A stretch of 64,000 nucleotides of DNA. Source: Planctomycetota bacterium. GTDB lineage: Bacteria > Planctomycetota > Phycisphaerae > UBA1845 > UTPLA1. The translations under genes were made by a program, and so were the position numbers. The first letter of the stretch is position 1; each line of letters opens with the position of its first letter. The DNA lies in NCBI GenBank assembly GCA_015654675.1, contig JAATGM010000019.1, positions 62,001 through 126,000 on the forward strand, in the 5' to 3' direction. The notes under the pieces are model-generated. The model searched no databases. It worked only from the letters and a program-made list of their open reading frames with translations, and was not told the origin of the DNA. Positions 1-46,732 of this stretch are shown here, one piece after another.

Positions 1-2800
1 CGTTCCAGATGCCGCCCGCGCCCCACTGGGCCGAGTTATTGCTGGCGGTGCAATTGATGAAACTTGCCGAGGAGCCGCTCCATTGTTCGGCGGTTGCACC
101 GTAGCCGTCCGTCGACGTATTGCCGCTGAAGACACAATTGGTGATGACCGGCGTGCTGGCGTCGGTGACGAAGACGCCGCCGCCGCCCCATTCGCCAGTG
201 TTACCGAAGAAGCGGCAGTTGGTGACGACGGCCGAGCTGTGGTCAGCGATCCAGACGCCGGCGCCGTATTTCGCGTGGTTGGCTGTGAACGTGCAATCGC
301 GGATGGTGGGCATGCTGGCGAAGGATACAACGCCACCGCCGCTCCAGCCGGAGGTGTTTTGATTAAACGTGCAATTGGTGATCGTCGGCTGACTGCCGTT
401 GGACATGCCGATCGCGCCGCTGCTGCCCGTGACGTTAACAATGGAGCCGCCGGTATTGGTGGTAAAGGTAGAGCCAGTGACGACAGGGCTGGCGGCGTAG
501 ATCCAGATGGCGCCGGCGTCGTTGGCGCCGACGTTGCTCGTGAATGTGCAGTTGTTGAAGTGTGCATTCGCACCGTCGTGGCAATAGGCGCCCGCGCCGA
601 AGGTGGCCGTGTTGCCGGTAAAGGTGCACTGGGTAAGCGTTGGTGAGTTGGGAGACGTGCCGCCGGCAATGAAACCGCCGCCTCCGTTGCCGAGGGCGGC
701 ATTGGTGTTGAAGTTGCACTGTGTCAGCGTCGGACTGGCGTTCCAGCTTCCGAACGCGCCGCCCCATGGCGACATGTTGCTGGTAAAGGTGCAGTTGGTG
801 AAGGTCGCGCCGTCGCTCAGTTCGCAGTTGACCGCTCCGTAGTCGGCGGCGGCCGTGTTGTTGGTGAAGGTGCAGCCGGTGTAGGCGGGAGAGGACTGAT
901 AGCTGCTCGCCGCGCCACCGAGCGAGCCGGCCGTGTTGGCGTCGAAGGTGCAGGAAACGAATTGGGAATTGGAGCCGTCACTGTCGCTTGCTCCTCCGCC
1001 AATGGTCGCGTTGTTGGCCGTGAAGCGGCAATTGCGAATGGTCGCGCCGCTGCAGCGAGACCGGTAACCGCCGCCGCTTTCGTTGGGGTATCCGTCATTC
1101 GCATTGCCGGCGGTGATGGTGAACCCGTCGAGGATGGCGGTCGAATTCAATCCGGTGCCGTCGACGACGTGATAGGAATTGTCGGAGTTGTCTCCCGAGA
1201 CGCCGATGTCGCCGGAGAGAGTGGTGACGTTGGCGGCGATGTTTCGCTGGGTGAGAAGCGATTCCGTGCCATTGAAGCCGCCGTAGATCGAGACGCCGTT
1301 GATCGGGCGGAATGAAAGATCACGTACAAACAGTGGATTCGTTTGGCCGCGATTGGGCTTGTAGGTCCCCGCAGCGACCCAGACTTCGGTGACGACGCCG
1401 CGCGATGACACGGCCTTTCCAATTCCCGCCTGGAGATCCTGAATAGCGGTGGCCCAGGATGAACCGTCGCCTCCGGGAGCAGCGGCCGCTCGAACAAAGA
1501 GTCGACTGGGCGGCGGCGAGACGAGCGTGCTCGGACGGAAGTTTGCAATGGTGAAGGCCGTGTTGTTATGGGTGAGCACGTTGTTGCAGGACGTATTGAT
1601 GTCGTCGCCAGCGACTCCCATCGCTCCGTGGTTTCCAAGCGGGCCGTTGTAGTCCATGTTGGGGTTGGAGAAGTAGAGAATGTTCGTGCCGGGCGGATAG
1701 GCCATGATGGTCTTCCAGACGCTGCCGGGCTCGCGATAGCCATAGGAATAATTGAAGAAGCCGCAGCAGGGTGTCGTGACGCGATCATGCTGGCAACCAA
1801 AGTTGTGGCCGACTTCGTGGGCGAGAGTTTCGAAGGGGGCGTTGTCCTGTCGCATGACGCCAAAGGTGGAGCGGCCGTCGTCATCGGGGCCGAGTGTTGC
1901 GAGGAAATAGGCGGCGCCGCCGGCATCGAGGTTATTGACGAAGAGGAACACGAGGTCGGCACCGTATGTGTCGCGGTCGGCGTGGACGCTGTCGAGGAAG
2001 CCGTCGGACGGATTAACGAGGCGCGGCAGGTCGGTCGCATAGACGCCGGTCTCGGTGTAGGAGATGAGAGCGGTGCGTACGATGCGGACGCGCGGGTTGA
2101 CGTTGCTGTTGGCGTAGGCCTGATTGGCGATCGACGCCGCCTGCGTGATAAGGGCATTGATCTGGGGAACGCCACCGGCTGCATCGCGAGCGGCGGCGGT
2201 GTAGACCACCATGATGTCGATCATGCTGCCATCGTCGGCGGAGTAGCGGGCGAGCGGTGAATTGGCGACCGGGCACACCGGAACGGCACCGCGGGGCTGC
2301 ACGGGCGGGGCGAGGTTAGCCGCGCCGCAGTAATCGGCAGTGAGTTTGGATTCATCGAATTTTCGAGCGACGAGCCGGCCGGTGGCGTCCTGGCGGATGT
2401 CGAATCGACCGATACCCGGCGCGGTGATTGAGGCGACGAAGACCTCGCGCTGAAAGGTTGCGACGACGGTGCTGTTGGGTATGCCAACTAACTGGCCAAA
2501 CGCAGTGAAGTCGTCCGCCGACCGATTATCGAACTGATCGAAACGGGCATGGAATACGGAATCTGAAGAAAGCGCGATATCAACAGTCGCGTTGCTTCGA
2601 AGCTGAGCGAATACGTTGAGGTCGACACTGACGGGCACGGCAGACGCGACGCCCGCGTTCCTGGCGGCGACTGAAATTGACCCGCTATCGATCGCGCCGG
2701 CGGAGGGCATGACAAGCTTTGGCGAATCCGATGCTCGGACCGTTGGCCCGCAAATAAACGCGCCGGCAACCGCGGCAAATATGAGAAATCTTCCCAACAT
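1..2800 (-). CDS. Secreted metzincin-type zinc metalloprotease with right-handed beta-helix tail (3' end cut by window)
   Basis: The gene starts at the ATG complementary to 2798-2800, with GGGGAG just upstream, and stays open to the left edge, so at least 933 residues are present and the C-terminus is missing. Residues 1-23 form a signal peptide. The catalytic site HEVGHNFGCQHD lies at residues 328-339, giving the metzincin HExxHxxGxxH signature with the following Asp seen in reprolysin-like enzymes. From about residue 430 the protein becomes a repetitive segment rich in 'NCTF..N.A' units with Gly/Asn turns, typical of parallel beta-helix (polymorphic outer-membrane-type) domains. It is probably exported and acts on or outside the cell surface. 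Substrate unknown. A C-terminal sorting signal or dockerin, as in the other metalloprotease of this window at 51112, would lie beyond the edge. Confidence 0.85.
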   Translation of the reverse strand, partial: MLGRFLIFAAVAGAFICGPTVRASDSPKLVMPSAGAIDSGSISVAARNAGVASAVPVSVDLNVFAQLRSNATVDIALSSDSVFHARFDQFDNRSADDFTAFGQLVGIPNSTVVATFQREVFVASITAPGIGRFDIRQDATGRLVARKFDESKLTADYCGAANLAPPVQPRGAVPVCPVANSPLARYSADDGSMIDIMVVYTAAARDAAGGVPQINALITQAASIANQAYANSNVNPRVRIVRTALISYTETGVYATDLPRLVNPSDGFLDSVHADRDTYGADLVFLFVNNLDAGGAAYFLATLGPDDDGRSTFGVMRQDNAPFETLAHEVGHNFGCQHDRVTTPCCGFFNYSYGYREPGSVWKTIMAYPPGTNILYFSNPNMDYNGPLGNHGAMGVAGDDINTSCNNVLTHNNTAFTIANFRPSTLVSPPPSRLFVRAAAAPGGDGSSWATAIQDLQAGIGKAVSSRGVVTEVWVAAGTYKPNRGQTNPLFVRDLSFRPINGVSIYGGFNGTESLLTQRNIAANVTTLSGDIGVSGDNSDNSYHVVDGTGLNSTAILDGFTITAGNANDGYPNESGGGYRSRCSGATIRNCRFTANNATIGGGASDSDGSNSQFVSCTFDANTAGSLGGAASSYQSSPAYTGCTFTNNTAAADYGAVNCELSDGATFTNCTFTSNMSPWGGAFGSWNASPTLTQCNFNTNAALGNGGGGFIAGGTSPNSPTLTQCTFTGNTATFGAGAYCHDGANAHFNNCTFTSNVGANDAGAIWIYAASPVVTGSTFTTNTGGSIVNVTGSSGAIGMSNGSQPTITNCTFNQNTSGWSGGGVVSFASMPTIRDCTFTANHAKYGAGVWIADHSSAVVTNCRFFGNTGEWGGGGVFVTDASTPVITNCVFSGNTSTDGYGATAEQWSGSSASFINCTASNNSAQWGAGGIWN

Positions 2801-2957
2801 GGTTCTCCCCTGGGCGCGGCTCGACCGCTCGCGCGCTTGCCTGATTTTACTCGGTCGCGAAGTGGCAGTGAGGCGAATTCGTGGAATCTACACGCACCAC
2901 CGCTGATCGTTGGAGGCGGGACGCTCGGAAGTCCTTGATTCGCATTGCATTAGGGCA

Positions 2958-5432
2958 TTAGCCGCGTGATTGAGCGCGAATGATGTCGCTGGCCTGATTG
3001 GTGGTGAGATTCAGGGCACCCAGGGCCTGCGACGCAGCCGTGCGAATATCGAGGTCTTTTTCCTGTTCAGAGACCTTTACGATCTGATCAACCAGGCGAT
3101 TTTCGAGCTTGTTGCCGATCAGCCGGGCCGATTCCGCGAGCGAACCAAAGGTGGCGACGCGCTGGGCTTTGCTGTTCTTCACATTCAACGCTGCCTCAGC
3201 GAGGCCCTTCTGGGCAGCGGCCGTCGGCGAGACCGCCAGGGCGGCGGCGGACTTGATACGGAGTTCCTCGCTTGGCTGGGCCAATGCGTCGATCAACGCG
3301 CCGTCGGCGCGGGACAGTTCGAAGACAGTGGACCGCGCGATCGCGATGAGACGAAGCGCCTCGGCGGCCTGAATGGCCAGACTAAGTGATACATTCTTGT
3401 CGAGCGATTTCATGCCGAGCGTGCTCGACGCGTCGGACAGCTTGCGCGTCACGGTCTGGGCGATCTTCTCTTCGGCGGCATCGACCTTGAGCACGTCGGA
3501 GAGAATGGTCTCGACTCCGGTGTAATCGCGGGCGACGTTTCCGGCGGCGCCGGTTTGTTTGGGCTTGCTCACAATCAGCAACGGAACGGTAGCCGTCTCG
3601 GGCCGGCGGCGCAGGTCGGCGATGGCCTCGGCGAGCGGCGGCGATGCCAAATCGCTGGCGACGAGGACGGCGTCAAAGGCGGGGACGTTGGCTTTGCGGG
3701 CAAGCTCCAGGGCCGAATAGAGAGACTCGTCGGAATAGACTTCGTAGTCCATCGCGCGAAGCACGGACTGAAATGCATTTCGTGTCTGCGAATCGGGATC
3801 GGCGACGATGGCGTAACGCTTGCTTGACTGTCCGAGCGCTTCGGCGAGGGCTGGGACGACGTTTTGCGCACCGGGGAAACCAGACGTGGGCAGAGCGCGG
3901 GCCAAGGCCAGGGCGGCTTTCACGCGGACCAGTCGGTTGGGGAACTCGAGCGCGCGAACGAGGGCCTGCTTGACGTCTTCCGGCCCGACAAGACTTGACG
4001 GCCCAGCCGTGGTGGCGAGCGCGGCGATTGTGCCGATGGCGACAGCGGCGTCACGATCTTTGACAGCGCGGGCCAGGGCCATGTGGTTGTAGAGCGGGCC
4101 GGCTGCGCGAGCGAAGTAGATGGAGCGCGGGTAGTTCTCCGGGCGTGTTGCGTCTTTCTCGGCGAGTGGCGAGGCGGCTTCCGACTCGACATCCATGCCG
4201 AGCTTGGCTTCGCGCTGGAAGTCGGCGGCGATCCAAACGGCGATCGAGTTGGCGTCGGATGTGGCGAGTTCCAAAGCGGCTTCGGCGGAGCGCATGGCCA
4301 TGACGTCGTTGAAGATCGCCCGAGGAACGGGGACGTAACGGAGGGCCTGGGCCTCGTCGTCGAAGTACCAGACGTTGGCCGTATCGACGCGCGAATCAGC
4401 CCGGAGCGATTCGGCGTCGTCGTAGTATCCGTCAGCGAGCATGCGGAAGAGCACGGCCGCATCGACGGTGCCGGTCTTATTGCATGCTCCAAGGGCTTCT
4501 CCGGCAGCGGCCTTCACCTGCGGGGTGGCGCTGGAGTCGCTGGAGACGATTCGTGCGAGATAGGGGGCGGCCTGCGGGTAACCAATGCTGCCCAAGGCGC
4601 GAATGAGGATCTCGCGTGTGACCTGGTCCTTCATGTTCAGGGCGATCACGAGGGGGTTCAAAGCCGAGCGGCCCATGAGCGGGAGCAATTGCATGATGGC
4701 CGGGTGGAGGTCGCGCTTCTTGGGGTCCTGCAGGTATGCAATCAAGGCGGGCACCGCATATTCGCCCGACGACTTGAGGAAGTTGGTGGCCTGATAGACG
4801 ACGCGCGGCGGGCCGCCGAGGCGTTCGACGTTGACTTCGATTTCGGCCGGGTCCATGCGGAGGGCGAGCGCGCCCTCTTCGAGCACCTTCATGACGAGCT
4901 TGGCCGACGGGCCTACTTCGGTGTTGGCGACGAGCTTGGTGAGTGTCTCCGAGCGGGCGGGGTTGTAGCGAGAAAGCTCGAGCAGCGCGACCGGGTCGGG
5001 GTTCGAGTCGACCAGGGCCTTGAAGTTCGCATCGGCGTAGTTGAAGCGACCAATGGCAGCAAAGTGCCAGCCGTCTTCGGCGAGTTGCCTCTGGCGGCGG
5101 CCATTCTTGATTTGGTCGACGAGCTTCTTTCCGACGTCTCCGAGAACCTTGTCCTGAACGGCTTGCTCAAAACGAAGCGTTCCGGAGCGATCAGCCATGA
5201 GCGCGAGTCGAAGGTCGGAGAGCTTCATGGCGGCGACGGCATTGAAGGCCTTGGTGGCGTCGTCGGGTTTGTCTTCTTCGAGGGCTTTGATGCCGCTCGA
5301 CCAGAGCGCCCATGCCTTGCCATCCTGGCCGACCATGTCGTCAGTGATTTCCTCCGCGCGGGCATGCGGCGCGGCGGTCAGGAAGGCGATCGCGAGCGAA
5401 GCGAGAAATATTCGCGAAAGGAAGGTGGCCAT
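2958..5432 (-). CDS. Exported HEAT-repeat protein with an internal degenerate receiver-like domain
   Basis: An 824-residue protein. The start at 5432 is chosen because it is preceded by GGAG and begins a clean signal peptide (MATFLSRIF... ending near APHARA); an upstream in-frame start would bury this signal. The N-terminal half has TPR/HEAT-like helical repeats. Residues about 540-650 resemble a CheY-type receiver (beta1 AIVADPD, FDAVLVASD, PLLIVSKP). At the usual phosphoacceptor position there is Ala592, and the first acidic-pocket residue is Ala544. Helical HEAT-like repeats resume to the C-terminus. A phosphorylation-competent receiver is therefore unlikely, and a scaffold role outside the cytoplasm is the simplest inference. 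A sigma70-like promoter lies upstream at 5561-5589. Function unknown. Confidence 0.85.
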   Translation of the reverse strand: MATFLSRIFLASLAIAFLTAAPHARAEEITDDMVGQDGKAWALWSSGIKALEEDKPDDATKAFNAVAAMKLSDLRLALMADRSGTLRFEQAVQDKVLGDVGKKLVDQIKNGRRQRQLAEDGWHFAAIGRFNYADANFKALVDSNPDPVALLELSRYNPARSETLTKLVANTEVGPSAKLVMKVLEEGALALRMDPAEIEVNVERLGGPPRVVYQATNFLKSSGEYAVPALIAYLQDPKKRDLHPAIMQLLPLMGRSALNPLVIALNMKDQVTREILIRALGSIGYPQAAPYLARIVSSDSSATPQVKAAAGEALGACNKTGTVDAAVLFRMLADGYYDDAESLRADSRVDTANVWYFDDEAQALRYVPVPRAIFNDVMAMRSAEAALELATSDANSIAVWIAADFQREAKLGMDVESEAASPLAEKDATRPENYPRSIYFARAAGPLYNHMALARAVKDRDAAVAIGTIAALATTAGPSSLVGPEDVKQALVRALEFPNRLVRVKAALALARALPTSGFPGAQNVVPALAEALGQSSKRYAIVADPDSQTRNAFQSVLRAMDYEVYSDESLYSALELARKANVPAFDAVLVASDLASPPLAEAIADLRRRPETATVPLLIVSKPKQTGAAGNVARDYTGVETILSDVLKVDAAEEKIAQTVTRKLSDASSTLGMKSLDKNVSLSLAIQAAEALRLIAIARSTVFELSRADGALIDALAQPSEELRIKSAAALAVSPTAAAQKGLAEAALNVKNSKAQRVATFGSLAESARLIGNKLENRLVDQIVKVSEQEKDLDIRTAASQALGALNLTTNQASDIIRAQSRG

Positions 5433-33778: not shown

Positions 33779-35008
33779 TCAGGCCGGTGCGACAACGGGT
33801 GCGGTCGCGTTGGTGCCGCGTTGCATACCTTTGAGAAATCGCCCGAGCATGCCCGCGGCCTTGGACCCCTGCGGGGCCACCTGCGGACTGTGGATCTTGG
33901 CGGCCAGGTCTCGCACGGCCTGGCGAATCTTCGTGCGGCCGGACTCGGCCGCGAGCGGCTTGCCGACATTGATCGCTGCGCTGACCGTCTTCCAGTCGTC
34001 GGGCAACGTGTGGAAGAGTTTGGTGTTGAGCGTTCGCTCGACCTGATCGGATTCGAGATGGCCTGAATCGCGACCAACCCGGTTACAGATAAACTGCATA
34101 CGCGCCGGATTGAACCCCTGCCCGGCCAATTCCTGGAGCATACGGTCGGCGTTGCGCACGCCGGTCACGAGCAGCTGCAGCACCATGAAGTTGTAATCCG
34201 CAACATCGAGAATCATTCGCCCGCCCGGGTCGCTGCGCATGGGGCCATCGATGACCACATAGGCGCACATTTCCTGCAGAACCGAAATCACGTTGACGCA
34301 GTGCGCGGCGGTGATGCACTCCGCCTGTTGAAACGTATGCGGCCGACCGAGGACGTGCAGCCCGGAGGCGTGCTTGACCAACGCCTTGTCGATCATGTTG
34401 GGATCGACTTGTTCGGGCGTGGCGCAGAGGTCGGCGACCGTGAACTGTGGAGAGAGATCGAGAATCGTGCCCACCTGCCCGAAGCGGAAGTCGAAATCGA
34501 GCAGGGCGACCTTCTTGTCGGCGCCCGCCAGGTCCGCGAGTTCAACGGCCAGATTTGTCGCAACAAATGTCGCGCCGACTCCGCCCGCGCATCCCATGAC
34601 CGATATGAGCTTTCCCGGTTCGCGCGTCACGATGCGCTCGGCTCCGATCTTTTCGAGGATCGGACGCAATTCTTCCGGCGCGAACGGCTTGAGCAGGAAT
34701 CCCTTCAGCCCGGCGCGCATGGCGCGGAGCAGGATTTCGCCGTCGGTATTGGAGCTGATCGCGACAACGGGGAGCCGGTGTTGCGCGATCTGGATTTGCG
34801 CGATCACTTCCAGAACGACGAGCGCGAGCGGATCGAGATGCGCGATCACGACGTCGCACGGAAATTGCGCTACCGCCTGCGGCAACAGACTCGGTTCGTC
34901 GATTTCGGCGACGATTCGAACGTCCGCTACGGCGTTCAACGCCTGGCGCAGCTCGACGGCGTACGCCTCGTCGGCGTTAAAGAGAATTGCACGAATCGGG
35001 GTACCCAT
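33779..35008 (-). CDS. tadZ: Tad pilus localisation protein TadZ/CpaE
   Basis: A 409-residue protein with an N-terminal receiver-like domain (about 1-120; FLLKPFAPEELRPIL) and a ParA/MinD-type ATPase domain with a deviant Walker A (GCAGGVGATFVATNLA). In other Tad systems this protein places the machinery at the pole. The receiver shows CDVVIAHLDPLALVVLE, with His at the usual Asp position, so it is likely non-phosphorylatable, as is common in TadZ. The gene lies between tadA and tadG. Confidence 0.9.
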   Translation of the reverse strand: MGTPIRAILFNADEAYAVELRQALNAVADVRIVAEIDEPSLLPQAVAQFPCDVVIAHLDPLALVVLEVIAQIQIAQHRLPVVAISSNTDGEILLRAMRAGLKGFLLKPFAPEELRPILEKIGAERIVTREPGKLISVMGCAGGVGATFVATNLAVELADLAGADKKVALLDFDFRFGQVGTILDLSPQFTVADLCATPEQVDPNMIDKALVKHASGLHVLGRPHTFQQAECITAAHCVNVISVLQEMCAYVVIDGPMRSDPGGRMILDVADYNFMVLQLLVTGVRNADRMLQELAGQGFNPARMQFICNRVGRDSGHLESDQVERTLNTKLFHTLPDDWKTVSAAINVGKPLAAESGRTKIRQAVRDLAAKIHSPQVAPQGSKAAGMLGRFLKGMQRGTNATAPVVAPA

Positions 35009-35052
35009 GGCTGCCCAGGTCCTTCCGCGCGTCCGCGAAATTGAGCCCCGTC

Positions 35053-35087
35053 GTCCGCCGGACGGCCCTTTGAGCCCGCCGGCGGAC
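35053..35087. repeat. Intercistronic hairpin between tadG and tadZ
   Basis: A 9-bp perfect stem GTCCGCCGG/CCGGCGGAC with a 17-base loop fills much of the 94-base gap between tadG and tadZ. It shares the GTCCGC core with the hairpin at 32271-32287. Confidence 0.5.
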
Positions 35088-35102
35088 GCGAGGCCCCTAC
35101 TC

Positions 35103-37013
35103 TTAATCGATCAGACGAACGGGACGCTTCCCTCCCAACTCGTTGAAAATTGCATTCAACTGAGAAACGTATCGGGGTTGACCGGTAATCGGGTCCGGGG
35201 CGCTATCGGCGTAGAAATACTGCCCACCGCCGATATCCGCGATGCTCTGGAGCAAGTCGGGATCGGCGTCTCCGCCCAGCCCCACGGCGTAGATCGTGAT
35301 GTGCTGGTTGGCCGCCGCGGTGGCCCGATTGATGCTGTAGGCCTCGGGCGACATACTTCCGGAGCCGACGTTCGGCTTGCCGTCAGTCAACAGAATGATG
35401 ACCTTGGCCGCCGCACTGCGTGCCCGCACGCTGGTGAGTTCGGCGAGCCCCTGGTTGAGCCCGGCACCGATATTCGTCGTGCTGTCATAGTGCCCGGCTT
35501 GGCGTTGATAAAGAGTGGCCGGAACGACCTGCAATGCCGTAGCCAGCGACTGGCCGGCCGACGGAATGGTGAGATTGACTTCGTGACGCGATGACGTCGC
35601 AAAGACCTCAAGCGATACGTGGTCCTGCGTATCGAGACTGACAATCAAATTGATCATTGTCTGAACCGCGTCCTTGGCCGAGCGGATCGGCATTTCGGGT
35701 GCGGACGGAAGGTCAGAGCAAGTGTCATTGCTGGCCTGCCGCTCGAGCAGATAGTTCACGACGGTTTTGATGCCGTAGCGATAGCGGAGCGTGCTATCGG
35801 TGTAGTACATCTGCGTATTGTTGGCGCTGACATAACTGATGTAGTCGTTCCAGGAGCCGCCGGTCCACGGCCAGGTCCGCGTCTGCGTCAGCTCGCTGGT
35901 ATCGACGATGTTGTCGCCGTTGCCGGTGCCGGTCCATTTGCCGCCCGACTTTCCGCTCTTCCAGCCCGCCAGTCCGAGCAGGACCGTGACGCGATTGGTG
36001 TAAGCGGTGAAATTGCTGTCGTTCGTACCGGCCAACAGCGCCGTTCGTTCGGCCGACGAGTAGCCGTTTTCTGTCAGGTTCGCGGTGATATCGCTGGCGC
36101 TCGTCGTCGAGCTGCGCGGGATGTAATACAGTCCCCAATCAGCCGAGGGGTTGTATTGGCCGAGGGTCAGCGCGGTTCCCCAGTCGGTCATCCATCCAAA
36201 GCGCGGTCCGGCCGGGTTACCACTTCCGCTGGCCGGCTCTTCATTTGGATCGGGGTTGCCCTTGACGCTGTGCGGAACGCCGGCGCCTACGGATGGCTGA
36301 GCTTCGCCCGCGGTGGGTGCGGACGGCGGCGTCGCCGGGGCCGCTCCGTTTCGGATTCCCGCACGCCCCTTTGCCGAGGGCAATGCGCTCCAGATGTCCT
36401 TCAAGTTGATCTGCACGGCCGGGCGCGTGCCCTGCACCTCAGATGCGAAATTCTTGTAGTGCCGCAATTCGCTGTCGTCGTTCATTGAGCCGGAGAGATC
36501 GAAGACCACAGCGATGTCCCGCGGGACAAGCATGGCGGTCGCACTGGCCGTGATCGAGGCGCCAGTGGCGCTATAGGCCCCGCCGAAGATGAGCGGGACG
36601 CGCGGCTTATGGACATTCGATCCGTCGCGGCGAACCGTCACCTTGACGGCGTCGTACGGCGTGACGTTTGGCTGAAACTGGTATTTTGCCCCGGTGAGAA
36701 TGGCGTGACCAAACACCAGGTCGCTGGCATCCACGAAGGCCGGGGTGCCCTTGACCTTGTTCTGGGCCGCGATGCTGGCAGCTTGCGCGGCCGCATTGGC
36801 GGAAGCACTAGCGCCTGAACCCAACTGCAGGGCGGCCGCGAGGGCCGCGGCATCGGCGGCGGATTGGAGCTCGCCGCGCGCGTTGAAGAGCATTCCCGTA
36901 TCAACGGTCAGCGCCATCGCGCCGACACCCACCAGCGAACCGAATACTGCCGTCTGGACCAGGACTGAACCGCGGCGCCGACTCCGAGCGCGTCGAACCA
37001 ACTTCGCAAACAT
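35103..37013 (-). CDS. tadG: TadG-like pilus protein with von Willebrand A domain
   Basis: A 636-residue protein. The N-terminus has a TadE/G-type anchor (RRGSVLVQTAVFGSLVGVGAMALTVDTG) followed by the conserved ARGELQSAADAAALAAA. A VWA domain begins with the MIDAS motif VFDLSGSMNDDS and ends with KVIILLTDGKPN and ITIYAVGLGGDADPD. About 250 residues are inserted between these VWA pieces. It would be an exposed minor component or adhesin. The ATG at 37013 follows GGGGGG; a TTG at 37037 is less likely. Confidence 0.88.
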   Translation of the reverse strand: MFAKLVRRARSRRRGSVLVQTAVFGSLVGVGAMALTVDTGMLFNARGELQSAADAAALAAALQLGSGASASANAAAQAASIAAQNKVKGTPAFVDASDLVFGHAILTGAKYQFQPNVTPYDAVKVTVRRDGSNVHKPRVPLIFGGAYSATGASITASATAMLVPRDIAVVFDLSGSMNDDSELRHYKNFASEVQGTRPAVQINLKDIWSALPSAKGRAGIRNGAAPATPPSAPTAGEAQPSVGAGVPHSVKGNPDPNEEPASGSGNPAGPRFGWMTDWGTALTLGQYNPSADWGLYYIPRSSTTSASDITANLTENGYSSAERTALLAGTNDSNFTAYTNRVTVLLGLAGWKSGKSGGKWTGTGNGDNIVDTSELTQTRTWPWTGGSWNDYISYVSANNTQMYYTDSTLRYRYGIKTVVNYLLERQASNDTCSDLPSAPEMPIRSAKDAVQTMINLIVSLDTQDHVSLEVFATSSRHEVNLTIPSAGQSLATALQVVPATLYQRQAGHYDSTTNIGAGLNQGLAELTSVRARSAAAKVIILLTDGKPNVGSGSMSPEAYSINRATAAANQHITIYAVGLGGDADPDLLQSIADIGGGQYFYADSAPDPITGQPRYVSQLNAIFNELGGKRPVRLID

Positions 37014-43267: not shown

Positions 43268-43612
43268 TCAGGTGGGTTTGTCGTCGTCGTCCGCTTCGTC
43301 TTCGTCGCCCTCTTCAAGCCCGGCCGGCTCGTCGCCGTACTTCCAGCTCTCGCCTTCCTCAATGTCGTCTATTTCGCGTTCCATGTGGCGGAACATTTTT
43401 TCCTGCAGCGGCGCGAGCTTGCGATACATCGCGACAGTGGCCTCGTAGGCCGCGACCAGGCGATCGAGTTTCTCGCCCTGCTCGGACAGTCGGAGTAACT
43501 GCCACTTTACGAGACATTCCGGCTCTTTAATGTTGCTAAATGGATCGCAACTGAACGTGATCTGGCCGCCTGGTCCGCGCACGCAGTGTTCGCATTCGCT
43601 GCATTGGAGCAT
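43268..43612 (-). CDS. Small Cys-rich acidic-tailed protein, unknown
   Basis: A 114-residue protein. The N-terminus holds CSECEHC...SCDPF...ECLVKW, a likely metal site. The centre is helical and charged (LRLSEQGEKLDRLVAAYEATVAMYRKL), possibly coiled coil. The C-terminus is very acidic (EEGDEDEADDDD). I do not recognise a named family. It sits in a minus-strand run upstream of the APH-type kinase gene. Confidence 0.75.
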   Translation of the reverse strand: MLQCSECEHCVRGPGGQITFSCDPFSNIKEPECLVKWQLLRLSEQGEKLDRLVAAYEATVAMYRKLAPLQEKMFRHMEREIDDIEEGESWKYGDEPAGLEEGDEDEADDDDKPT

Positions 43613-43629: not shown

Positions 43630-43995
43630 TCAGTCGAGAAACTGGACGGCCGTATCGTGCGCCGCTTTGGGATCGCCGGCAAACTCCTTGAGCACGGCAC
43701 GCGTGCGATCGCCCTGCCGCTCATTCCAATGCTGAACCTCTTTTTGGAACATGAAATCGTACCAGCCGATGTCAGAGTGGAGCTTGGCGTCATATTCGCG
43801 TGTCATCACTCCGATCTCGCGAATGTCAGCCGCCACCGCCGGGGGGCGTTCGCTTTCCCACTTTGCAACCGCATCGAGATCCGCGGCGACTGCCTGTTGA
43901 CGTGCGACAGATCGCTGTTGAGCGACTTGATCGCTGCAAGATGTTATCAGGACAAGACTTGTGATGCAGAGACGGGTTGCGAAACCGAGCTTCAT
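43630..43995 (-). CDS. Small lipoprotein, unknown function
   Basis: About 121 residues. The N-terminus reads MKLGFATRL...LVLITSC, a lipoprotein signal with lipobox ITSC. The rest is helical and charged. The second of two close ATGs (43995) is chosen because GAGG lies eight bases before it. It lies 17 bases upstream of the Cys-rich gene and is divergent from parB. Confidence 0.75.
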   Translation of the reverse strand: MKLGFATRLCITSLVLITSCSDQVAQQRSVARQQAVAADLDAVAKWESERPPAVAADIREIGVMTREYDAKLHSDIGWYDFMFQKEVQHWNERQGDRTRAVLKEFAGDPKAAHDTAVQFLD

Positions 43996-44179
43996 TGGCA
44001 TTGCCTCGAATTACAAGTCCTTATACCCGATCGGCGTCCCATGCCGCACGCGGGGAACGAATATTAGATAACGAAGCAATTAGTAGATAAATTGGGACTG
44101 ACAGTTCTGATCTTAGGGAGCACTCTAGAAACCTGTAAATGCACGTTCCTGCGTGCTCGATTTGCGACTGACGAATTGA

Positions 44180-44195
44180 TGTTCCACGTGGAACA
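44180..44195. promoter_or_regulatory. parS centromere-like site
   Basis: TGTTCCACGTGGAACA is a perfect 16-bp palindrome matching the bacterial parS consensus (TGTTnCACGTGnAACA). It lies about 90 bases upstream of parB and seven bases before the -35 of the probable parB promoter. ParB is expected to load here as a CTP-dependent clamp. Confidence 0.93.
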
Positions 44196-44202
44196 CGCCT
44201 CA

Positions 44203-44231
44203 TTGACGCCGCGAGCTTCGGGTTCTAACAT
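44203..44231 (+). promoter_or_regulatory. Probable promoter of the parB operon
   Basis: TTGACG (44203-44208), 17-base spacer, TAACAT (44226-44231). Transcription would start near 44238, about 48 bases before the parB ATG. The adjacent parS suggests ParB could repress its own promoter. Confidence 0.5.
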
Positions 44232-44285
44232 CCGCCTCGCTCTCAACGGCGGCGACTGGCAATTTGGAACAAGGCGGCACAAAAC

Positions 44286-45200
44286 ATGTCCAAAGATCAA
44301 CCTCGGCTCGGCAGGGGGCTCAGCTCGCTCATTTCTACCACAAGCGAGCCCTCGGCTAGTACCAGTTCCATCCGAATGGACCCAGGCGTGCTGACATCCT
44401 CTCCTACAGGAAGATTGTTGGAGATACCGCTCGATGCCATCCATCCCAACCCTATGCAACCTCGTAAGGTGTTCGATACTGCCGCGCTGGCCAACTTATC
44501 CAAATCAATGGCGGATCGAGGAACCCTCCAGCCGATCGTCGTACGACCCACTGCGAGTGGTTTCGAACTGGTAGCAGGCGAGCGACGCTGGCGCGCCGCG
44601 AAACTGGCGGGGCTCGCCACGATTCCCGCCATCAGCCGGCAAATCGCCGAATCGGATCGCCTTGAATTGGCGCTCATCGAAAACCTGCACCGCGAAAACC
44701 TGAACCCGATCGAGCGGGCACAGGCCTATTTAGAGATAAAGACTCGCCTAAATGTCGGAAATGAAGAACTGGCGGATCGAATCAACGAAGATCGAGCCAC
44801 CGTCGCCAATTACATTCGAATTCTCGATCTGCCGGATGATGTCCTGGCCATGCTGGCTGACGGCCGGCTCAGCATGGGGCACGGCCGGGCGCTTTTGGGG
44901 ATCGGCGATCCGCGACTAAGATCGCGAGTCGCCCAGCAGGCGTTCTCGGGCGGCTGGTCCGTCCGCCAGACGGAGGCCGCCGTTCGCGAGTCGGCGGCCG
45001 GCAAGGCAGCTCGGCCGACCCCGGCCAAGCGTGCGGCCGTCAGCGACGTGGAGCGCCAGTTGACGGCGGCGGTCGGCACTCGGGTCGCCATTCGCGAAGG
45101 CCGCAAGCGAAACAGCGGCCGGATTACGGTCGAGTACTACAGTCTGGACGACTTCGAGCGGATTATCACGCGTCTGGGCGTGCAGCCGGAAGAGGTATGA
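44286..45200 (+). CDS. parB: Chromosome partitioning protein ParB
   Basis: A 304-residue ParB. The N-terminal RLGRGLSSLI resembles the ParA-stimulating Spo0J peptide. The CTPase/ParB-nuclease-like domain has LQPIVVRP, GERRWR (residues 98-103) and ENLHRENLNPIE (132-143). The HTH DNA-binding domain contains DRINEDRATVANYIRILDLPDDV and MGHGRALLG; a C-terminal dimerisation region closes the protein. It starts downstream of a perfect parS. No parA is adjacent. Its stop overlaps the next gene start (ATGA). Confidence 0.95.
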   Translation: MSKDQPRLGRGLSSLISTTSEPSASTSSIRMDPGVLTSSPTGRLLEIPLDAIHPNPMQPRKVFDTAALANLSKSMADRGTLQPIVVRPTASGFELVAGERRWRAAKLAGLATIPAISRQIAESDRLELALIENLHRENLNPIERAQAYLEIKTRLNVGNEELADRINEDRATVANYIRILDLPDDVLAMLADGRLSMGHGRALLGIGDPRLRSRVAQQAFSGGWSVRQTEAAVRESAAGKAARPTPAKRAAVSDVERQLTAAVGTRVAIREGRKRNSGRITVEYYSLDDFERIITRLGVQPEEV

Positions 45201-45997
45201 ACTCAGTACGAAACGATTCGCAGTCTGGTGGGGGATTGGCCGGGCACCTGGTGGCCGCCGCACTGGCATGCGCGCTGACGGTCTCAATCGTTGGTTCAAT
45301 TGCATACCTTGGAATTGATTACTACCGAAAGCGCGAAGAGCGGCAGCGAATCTCGGACTTCGTGTCGGCGCTCGAACATCGCTCGCCACAGGAACTTTCG
45401 ACAATCGTTGATGAACTCAAGAAGCGGCGTGGCCTCGCGTCGCGTGTCATTCCGACCGTTCTTCGCACTGCAAAGCGGGACGGGTCGCATCAGCGACAAG
45501 TCGCCGCGGTGGAAGTCAGCGAGGCGTTCATCGATGAGCCGGGTGTAGAGGACGCATTTTTTGCGCTTCGACTCTCGCGCGACGAAGTCGTCGCCGCCAA
45601 GTCGGTGGCGGCGCTGGCGCGGTTGGCGCCGCCCGAACGGGCTGTCCGGCGATTGGTCGAGTGCCTCGACGCGCCCGCACCGATTGTCGCGGATGCTGCT
45701 TGTTGCGGCATGGTTGACCTTGGCGATCCGGGCGCGACGGCATTGCGGTCGTCGCTTGGAAAGTTCGACGTTGAGCGGCGAATCTGGGTCGCAGGACTTC
45801 TGGCCGATCGCAAACCGCCGGGTGCGGCGAGTCTTCTCGAAGGAATGCTTTCCGATTCGGACGTCCGCGTTCGGCAAGCGGCGGCCCGCTCGGTGGGGCA
45901 GTTGGCCGGCGAACCGAACGCTGGCGATGATCAAGGCGTTGCGCGGGCCCGCCAGTGGCTTGCGGCGCGCAATACCCAAGTTTCAAAACACCCATGA
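45197..45997 (+). CDS. Membrane-anchored HEAT-repeat protein
   Basis: A 266-residue protein with one N-terminal membrane segment (about residues 18-40) and then HEAT/Armadillo-like helical repeats (for example AAKSVAALARLAPPERAVRRLVECL and VRVRQAAARSVGQLAGEP). It is translationally coupled to parB by a 4-base overlap, a hint, not proof, of a role in chromosome or envelope placement. Function unknown. Confidence 0.8.
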   Translation: MNSVRNDSQSGGGLAGHLVAAALACALTVSIVGSIAYLGIDYYRKREERQRISDFVSALEHRSPQELSTIVDELKKRRGLASRVIPTVLRTAKRDGSHQRQVAAVEVSEAFIDEPGVEDAFFALRLSRDEVVAAKSVAALARLAPPERAVRRLVECLDAPAPIVADAACCGMVDLGDPGATALRSSLGKFDVERRIWVAGLLADRKPPGAASLLEGMLSDSDVRVRQAAARSVGQLAGEPNAGDDQGVARARQWLAARNTQVSKHP

Positions 45998-46012: not shown

Positions 46013-46732
46013 ATGACCGAGGGCTGGATCGTCGCGCTGTTGTTGAAGCTGCCGTACGTCGGCCTGTTCACGGTTCTGTTCGTCGCTGGACTGGGATTAC
46101 CTCTTCCAGAGGATATTCCGCTCTTGGCGGCCGGCTGGCTGGTTCACAAAGGACATGCCAATCTCTATGCGATGATCGCCGTCGGCCTGGTCGGCGTGCT
46201 GGTGGGCGATTTTCTGTTGTTCAGCATGGGGCGGCGGTACGGCATTCACATCACCGAACATCGCTTCATGAAGCGGGTCGCGAGCCCGGCGCTGCTTCAG
46301 CGAGCGGAAGGAATGTTCGCGAGCCACGGAGCAAAGATCATTTTCGTCGCGCGCTTCATGCCCGGGCTGCGCTCAGTCTTGTTTGTCACGGCCGGGATTT
46401 TTCGAGTTCGTCCGATCAAGTTTGTGCTCATCGATGGGTCGGCTGCAATCGCTTCAGTGCCGCTGCTGATCTGGCTGGGCGAACGATTTGGCGAGAAGAT
46501 CGAGTCTCTGGCCGGCAATGTTCGCAACGCGCAGTTCATCGCGGTCGGGTGTCTCGCGGGCGCGGTCGCGGCGTGGTGTGCCTGGGAATACTATCAGATT
46601 CGTCGCCGGAGGCGGCTGGCGGCAACGACGACCGGTGCGGTTGGGTCTGCCGGCGCTTTGAATGCTCGCGCGGATTTGAAGACCGGGCCGGACGGGCGGA
46701 TCGTCGCGGGGCGAAAAGAGCCCGCGGCTTGA
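46013..46732 (+). CDS. DedA-family membrane protein
   Basis: A 239-residue DedA/SNARE-associated family protein. Motifs: GLGLPLPEDIPLLAAGWLVHKG, GVLVGDFLLFSMGRRYG and FVARFMPGLRSVLFVTAG, the last containing the conserved Arg/Gly pair. About five to six membrane segments. Some family members flip undecaprenyl phosphate or phospholipids. A charged C-terminal tail (RRRRRLAATTTG) follows the last helix. It lies in the parB gene run. Confidence 0.88.
   Translation: MTEGWIVALLLKLPYVGLFTVLFVAGLGLPLPEDIPLLAAGWLVHKGHANLYAMIAVGLVGVLVGDFLLFSMGRRYGIHITEHRFMKRVASPALLQRAEGMFASHGAKIIFVARFMPGLRSVLFVTAGIFRVRPIKFVLIDGSAAIASVPLLIWLGERFGEKIESLAGNVRNAQFIAVGCLAGAVAAWCAWEYYQIRRRRRLAATTTGAVGSAGALNARADLKTGPDGRIVAGRKEPAA

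Follow-up and report, generated by a model that had tools for sequence, protein, structure and literature searches.

What kind of partition system is specified by a parB gene that has a parS site just before its predicted promoter and no parA gene beside it? A balance between ParA and ParB has to be maintained, which most bacteria achieve with a single operon; parA and parB are usually, though not universally, adjacent. The gene in question lies in a 64,000-nucleotide stretch of DNA from a Planctomycetota bacterium (the window; its genome is G000), and we compared it with loci from its family, order and phylum and from other phyla. The order sample comprised 61 genomes (G000 and 60 others).

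A canonical ParB encoded by a single gene

The parB gene (44286..45200, plus strand) encodes a protein of 304 aa with three domains, ParB_N (2e-31, 108 bits against a curated cut-off of 26), HTH_ParB (8e-30, 104 bits against 23) and ParB_C (2e-9, 37 bits against 24). All three score above their cut-offs, and the preliminary description was thus right to call the gene parB. The top PDB match of the protein was Spo0J (6sdk, 1.8e-51), and it also matched the structure of KorB (8qa8, 9e-11). Near its N-terminus are the letters RLGRGLSSLI, which we take to be the ParA-binding motif of ParB, followed further on by GERR and ENxxR, presumably the CTP-site motifs. Among 29 aligned ParBs, R7, L8, G9 and G11 of RLGRGLSSLI were nearly invariant, and G98, E99, R100, R101, E132, N133 and R136 were invariant. 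The best NCBIfam row was TIGR04285 (nucleoid_noc), at a score of 203.4 bits under a curated cut-off of 315 bits, and identification of the protein as Noc was rejected on this score. By its sequence, the window's ParB is a canonical chromosomal ParB (ParB/RepB/Spo0J), and parB is single-copy in the genome.

A unique parS palindrome beside the predicted parB promoter

Upstream of parB lies the palindrome TGTTCCACGTGGAACA (44180..44195, with no strand of its own), which matches the parS consensus perfectly and which we take to be parS and not a Noc site. A predicted promoter follows on the plus strand, with the -35 hexamer TTGACG (44203..44208) 7 bp past parS and, after a spacer of 17 bp, the -10 hexamer TAACAT (44226..44231). 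Transcription would start about 7 bp beyond the -10 hexamer, near 44238, and the end of parS is 90 bp from the parB ATG (44286). The preliminary description had drawn attention to this arrangement, a perfect palindrome seven bases ahead of TTGACG-17-TAACAT and about 90 bases before parB. The palindrome and both distances were confirmed exactly from the sequence, and promoter scoring found the same promoter again; when the stretch between parS and ATG was shuffled 300 times, 0.3% of the shuffles reached its score.

The window contains no other parS match at up to 3 mismatches, and at least one such match occurred in 14 of 100 shuffles of the window. A genome search for further copies, which had been proposed at the outset, found no second parS with 2 mismatches or fewer anywhere in the assembly (4.93 Mb in 62 contigs, 96% complete, so that gaps could hide one), and the site beside parB is its sole copy. 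From base composition, a perfect parS is expected about 0.0007 times per genome and 3e-8 times per 200 bp. The uniqueness of the site in the assembly, together with the expectation of about 0.0007 per genome, rules out a chance palindrome.

Genes around parB

The stop codon of parB is overlapped (ATGA) by a gene for a HEAT-repeat protein with a probable N-terminal membrane segment (45197..45997, plus strand), and 15 bp beyond this gene begins one for a DedA/VTT-domain membrane protein that is weakly UptA-like (46013..46732, plus strand). Both genes adjoin parB in 15 of 16 family relatives, as judged from 1.5-kb flanks, some of which were ended by the contig. The overlap, the 15-bp gap and the retention of both genes beside parB suggest that parB heads an operon, of which the HEAT gene is probably a member. 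On the other side, upstream of parS, is a divergent gene on the minus strand (43630..44001) whose product starts MPMKLGFATRLCITSLVLITSC and has a lipoprotein-like signal, in agreement with the divergent lipoprotein gene named earlier as the upstream neighbour. No relatives of this product were detected at E 1e-5 among the compared loci. A gene for a 114-aa protein (43268..43612, minus strand), also divergent and upstream of parB, is kept there in 12 of the 16 family relatives, within the same 1.5-kb flanks, some ended by the contig.

parA lies elsewhere in the genome and across the order

The preliminary description had noted the absence of a ParA partner other than TadZ. Within the window this is correct: no parA is adjacent to parB, and the sole ParA-type match is a TadZ/CpaE-like gene (about 33782-35110, minus strand), which has a sub-threshold AAA_31 match (G000:C16:96475-96612) and is MinD/CpaE-like in NCBIfam. 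For the genome as a whole it does not hold. The search for parA that had been suggested with it turned up eight AAA_31 matches in G000, the best of which is a Soj-type ParA gene on contig C44 (G000:C44:48046-49203). In the PDB, the product of this gene matched a ParA (8ray, 9e-53) and a segregation protein (1wcv, 8e-46). The genes beside it, named by eye, are a divergent phosphatase-like one and a VanZ-like one. A system that lacks ParA is therefore ruled out. Since a Soj-type ParA is encoded on another contig and ParB keeps its ParA-binding motif, the window appears to hold the ParB-parS half of an ordinary ParABS system whose parA has become separated.

A ParA-like protein encoded on contig C38 (L003:694-2181, minus strand) was set aside as the partner of ParB. 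It shares 37% identity with the C44 ParA and combines a ParA-type ATPase with a fused glycogen-binding domain at the C-terminus (AMPK1_CBM 1e-12, CBM_48 8e-9), and its gene lies next to one that we take to be proC-like. Second ParA matches were seen in many genomes of the order, at similar identity (29-41%) and mostly in longer frames (about 300-560 aa).

The separation extends across the order. ParB was found at E<=1e-20 in 56 of the 61 genomes and a ParA-type match at E<=1e-30 in 59, and a strong orthologue of the C44 ParA is present in 55 (G000 and 54 others). In none of the 50 order genomes carrying both genes was parA adjacent to parB; even the closest pair is separated by 10 kb. For 40 of the 50 the two genes are on different contigs, where a contig break between them is possible, and for the other 10 they share a contig, at distances of 10 kb (G021), 76-80 kb (G011, G045) and up to 2.16 Mb. 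Likewise, among the order loci (the best 30 of 56 were examined), the flanks of parB, at most 1.5 kb long, contained no ParA.

Linkage of parA and parB outside the order

Among named loci, we compared the best 80 of at least 594. ParA lay within 600 bp upstream of parB in 66 of these 80 and within 3.4 kb in 2; it was absent in 12, among them every one of the 5 labelled Planctomycetota or Phycisphaerae and of the 3 labelled Verrucomicrobiota, the remainder being L070, L083, L093 and L134. In two of the latter, L070 (labelled Alphaproteobacteria) and L083 (labelled Actinomycetota), parS closely precedes parB, again without a ParA; these labels may be wrong. In many named loci, as in L072, L084, L130 and L139 from other phyla, parS is found shortly upstream of a parAB pair.

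In the phylum, ParB was present in 113 of 138 genomes searched; no ParB match was found in G106. A ParA-like gene (28-36% identity) occurred within 1.5 kb of parB in 11 of the 30 phylum loci examined, one of the 30 being the window's own, and was directly upstream in 7 of the 11 and convergent downstream in 4. L162, L172, L175 and L179 have a ParA-like gene of divergent sequence (28-36% identity) that lies downstream of parB, not upstream, and is convergent with it. Among 20 genomes of other families, one (G167) has a ParA-type gene directly upstream of parB as well as a Soj-type gene elsewhere, the only such adjacency in that set, and another (G196) has a ParA-type gene about 19 kb from parB. 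The idea that parA and parB are separated in the whole phylum was not upheld, given the 11 linked loci of 30 and the ParA directly upstream in G167. In other classes of the phylum, parS was seen within parB itself, about 515-578 bases past the start of the reading frame (L160, L161, L163, L164, L167-L170, L172-L176, L178, L179 and others).

Chromosomal position of parB-parS and parA

In most complete relatives parB-parS appears to lie near the origin, as located by dnaA or by GC skew. The distance from parB to the best dnaA is 47 kb in G013, 50 kb in G002, about 64 kb in G014 and 192 kb in G001. In G047 and G172 dnaA is elsewhere and parB lies inside the origin interval given by GC skew (20 skew samples; out of 1000 permutations, 1 and 0, respectively, gave as good a fit); in G047 it is about 2 kb from genes that appear to be dnaN- and gyrB-like. 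For G048 the distance between parB and dnaA is 885 kb, and the skew is uninformative (677/1000). The skew-fitted origin is 0.2-0.4 Mb from parB in G002 and about 0.8-1.0 Mb in G013, despite the nearby dnaA. In G000, dnaA is on contigs C10/C11 and parB on another contig.

The parA gene lies at 0.80-0.96 of the half-chromosome from dnaA in G013, G002, G047 and G048. In G172 it is at 0.94 from the first dnaA and mid-arm by the skew-fitted terminus, and in G014 its distance from dnaA is about 0.40 of the half-chromosome. A position of parA always near the terminus is thus not upheld, owing to G172 by skew and to G014.

The parS-promoter layout is conserved across the order

Of the 30 order loci examined (the best 30 of 56), 27 have a parS site upstream of parB at a distance of no more than 350 bp; the exceptions are L025, with two variant copies, L031, with no parS, and L037, where parS is downstream. 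Sigma-70-like promoters were scored between parS and ATG in 26 loci, L038 being dropped as too short and L025, L031 and L037 for having no standard site. Because the loci are related, fewer than 26 are independent. The summed promoter score was 237.5, compared with 195 +/- 4.3 in dinucleotide shuffles, and none of 300 shuffles reached it. A promoter that scored at least 9 with a gap of up to 30 bp from parS was present in 12 of the 26 loci, against 1.1 +/- 1.0 after shuffling (0/300). Such a gap at any score was only mildly unusual (21 of 26 against 14.6 +/- 2.4, reached in 2 of 300). The gaps range from 3 to 28 bp, with no helical phase apparent among them (n=17; p between about 0.34 and 0.44), and in L018 and L023 the best promoter precedes parS. 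As read from these sequences, parS beside a predicted promoter is a layout conserved across the order.

The variant palindrome in L025 (G005) is TGTTCCGCGCGGAACA, present in two copies upstream of parB (998-1013 and 1109-1124). The ParB of this locus carries A at the position of the window's G198, presumably the position that separates ParB from Noc in site choice, and site and reader look as if they covary. In two other genomes parS-like sites are numerous at up to 2 mismatches, with 29 in G003 and 38 in G049 against 2 and 1 in a reversed control, and with up to 3 mismatches allowed, L017 (G003) alone has six such sites within about 1.2 kb (2568-3773).

Discussion

These data make it very likely that the locus belongs to a chromosomal ParABS system in which the parA gene is separated from parB-parS. 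ParB would load at the single parS and form CTP-dependent clamps, and the ParB-parS complex would mark the origin region as a centromere. The Soj-type ParA, supplied from its other locus, would act in trans through the RLGRGL motif. ParB at parS would also hinder RNA polymerase at the promoter of parB-HEAT-dedA, because parS lies a few bases before that promoter, and would in this way limit its own synthesis. We therefore favor negative autoregulation, with parS as both the centromere and a negative operator of the parB-HEAT-dedA operon, and give it a probability of roughly 0.6.

It is the geometry, along with precedents from Pseudomonas and KorB, that points to repression; the preliminary description had proposed that spreading ParB could occlude its own promoter. 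In P. aeruginosa, ParB represses promoters beside the intergenic sites parS3 and parS4 (PMC5521831). Both there and in the window an intergenic parS is beside a promoter, and a repressor role for ParB would be common to the two; the genes repressed in P. aeruginosa are non-par genes, whereas here the adjoining gene is parB itself. KorB of RK2 belongs with ParB among the ParB-family clamps, and promoter silencing is its feature; according to PMC11790492, it represses efficiently only when KorA holds the clamp. KorB acts with KorA on plasmid promoters, whereas no KorA-like partner is known for the window's ParB. A review states that chromosomal ParAs are without the DNA-binding domain through which plasmid ParAs regulate themselves (PMC7022226), so that ParB may be the more natural candidate for an autoregulator.

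Alternatively, parS could be a centromere only, left near the promoter without regulatory effect after an ancestral parS-parA-parB arrangement lost its middle parA gene. The loci of other phyla with parS shortly upstream of parAB (L072, L084, L130 and L139) are what such an ancestry would resemble, and PMC5521831 reports that P. aeruginosa genes by the intragenic parS1 and parS2 are unregulated at the native ParB level, so that a nearby parS does not guarantee repression. Free drift would, however, vary the spacing, whereas the promoter has stayed within 30 bp of parS across ParBs 41-56% identical to the window's; within that limit the gaps do range from 3 to 28 bp. We regard this explanation as possible, though on the unlikely side.

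ParB at parS might instead activate the parB promoter, by contacting RNA polymerase or by opening the region, as VirB does for Shigella virulence genes. Just ahead of the -35 hexamer, parS is where upstream activators sit, and VirB clamps are cited as activators in PMC11790492. Yet gaps of 3 to 28 bp without helical phase, and the loci in which parS follows the best promoter (L018 and L023), fit occlusion better than face-specific activation, and we consider activation improbable. It is more improbable still that ParB is an orphan that no longer uses ParA, as Noc or another regulator, for although TIGR04285 nucleoid_noc tops its NCBIfam rows (203 bits), parA is not adjacent and such ParBs are widespread (PMC12704722), that score is far under 315 bits, the ParA-binding motif, enriched in ParBs encoded near parA according to the same source, is kept, a Soj-type ParA is retained in the order, and this parB is the only one of its genome and is paired with parS.

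With negative autoregulation in a separated system as the preferred reading, the window's locus can be set beside known ones. It shares with the chromosomal ParABS systems of Bacillus (Spo0J/Soj), Caulobacter and Pseudomonas the ParB domains, the CTP motifs, the ParA-binding motif, the parS consensus and a Soj-type ParA, and most complete relatives of the window's genome appear to share origin proximity as well. It differs from them in that parA is not beside parB and that a single parS stands just before the parB promoter. A recent survey (PMC12704722, PNAS 2025) places about 77% of chromosomal parB genes in parAB operons and describes orphan ParBs encoded outside them. The window's parB is likewise outside a parAB operon; orphan ParBs tend to lack the ParA-binding motif, as that survey indicates, whereas the window's ParB keeps it and a ParA is encoded elsewhere in the genome. 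The string 'planctomycet' does not occur in the main text of PMC12704722, and in the open-licence literature we found no paper on parS as a parB operator in such a lineage and no useful one on planctomycete or chlamydial chromosome segregation. The arrangement is a conserved, real but modest variation on the well-known ParABS theme, unlinked (orphan) parB genes having been described already.

A broader proposal is that in this order the main centromere is the operator of parB, such that the ParB level scales to the number of centromeres, or replicated origins, and ParA comes from a remote, often terminus-side gene. We hold this as speculative and rather doubtful. The far parA positions in G013, G002, G047 and G048 fit it, and those in G014 and, by skew, in G172 speak against it. 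If true, the ratio of ParA to ParB would depend on control in trans and on the gene dosage that results from replication, not on a shared operon. In practice, parB-parS may be a useful marker of the origin region in genomes such as G047 and G172, whose dnaA has moved away. A lineage in which the centromere doubles as the parB operator, with parA elsewhere, would be a natural experiment on how ParA and ParB are balanced without a shared operon.
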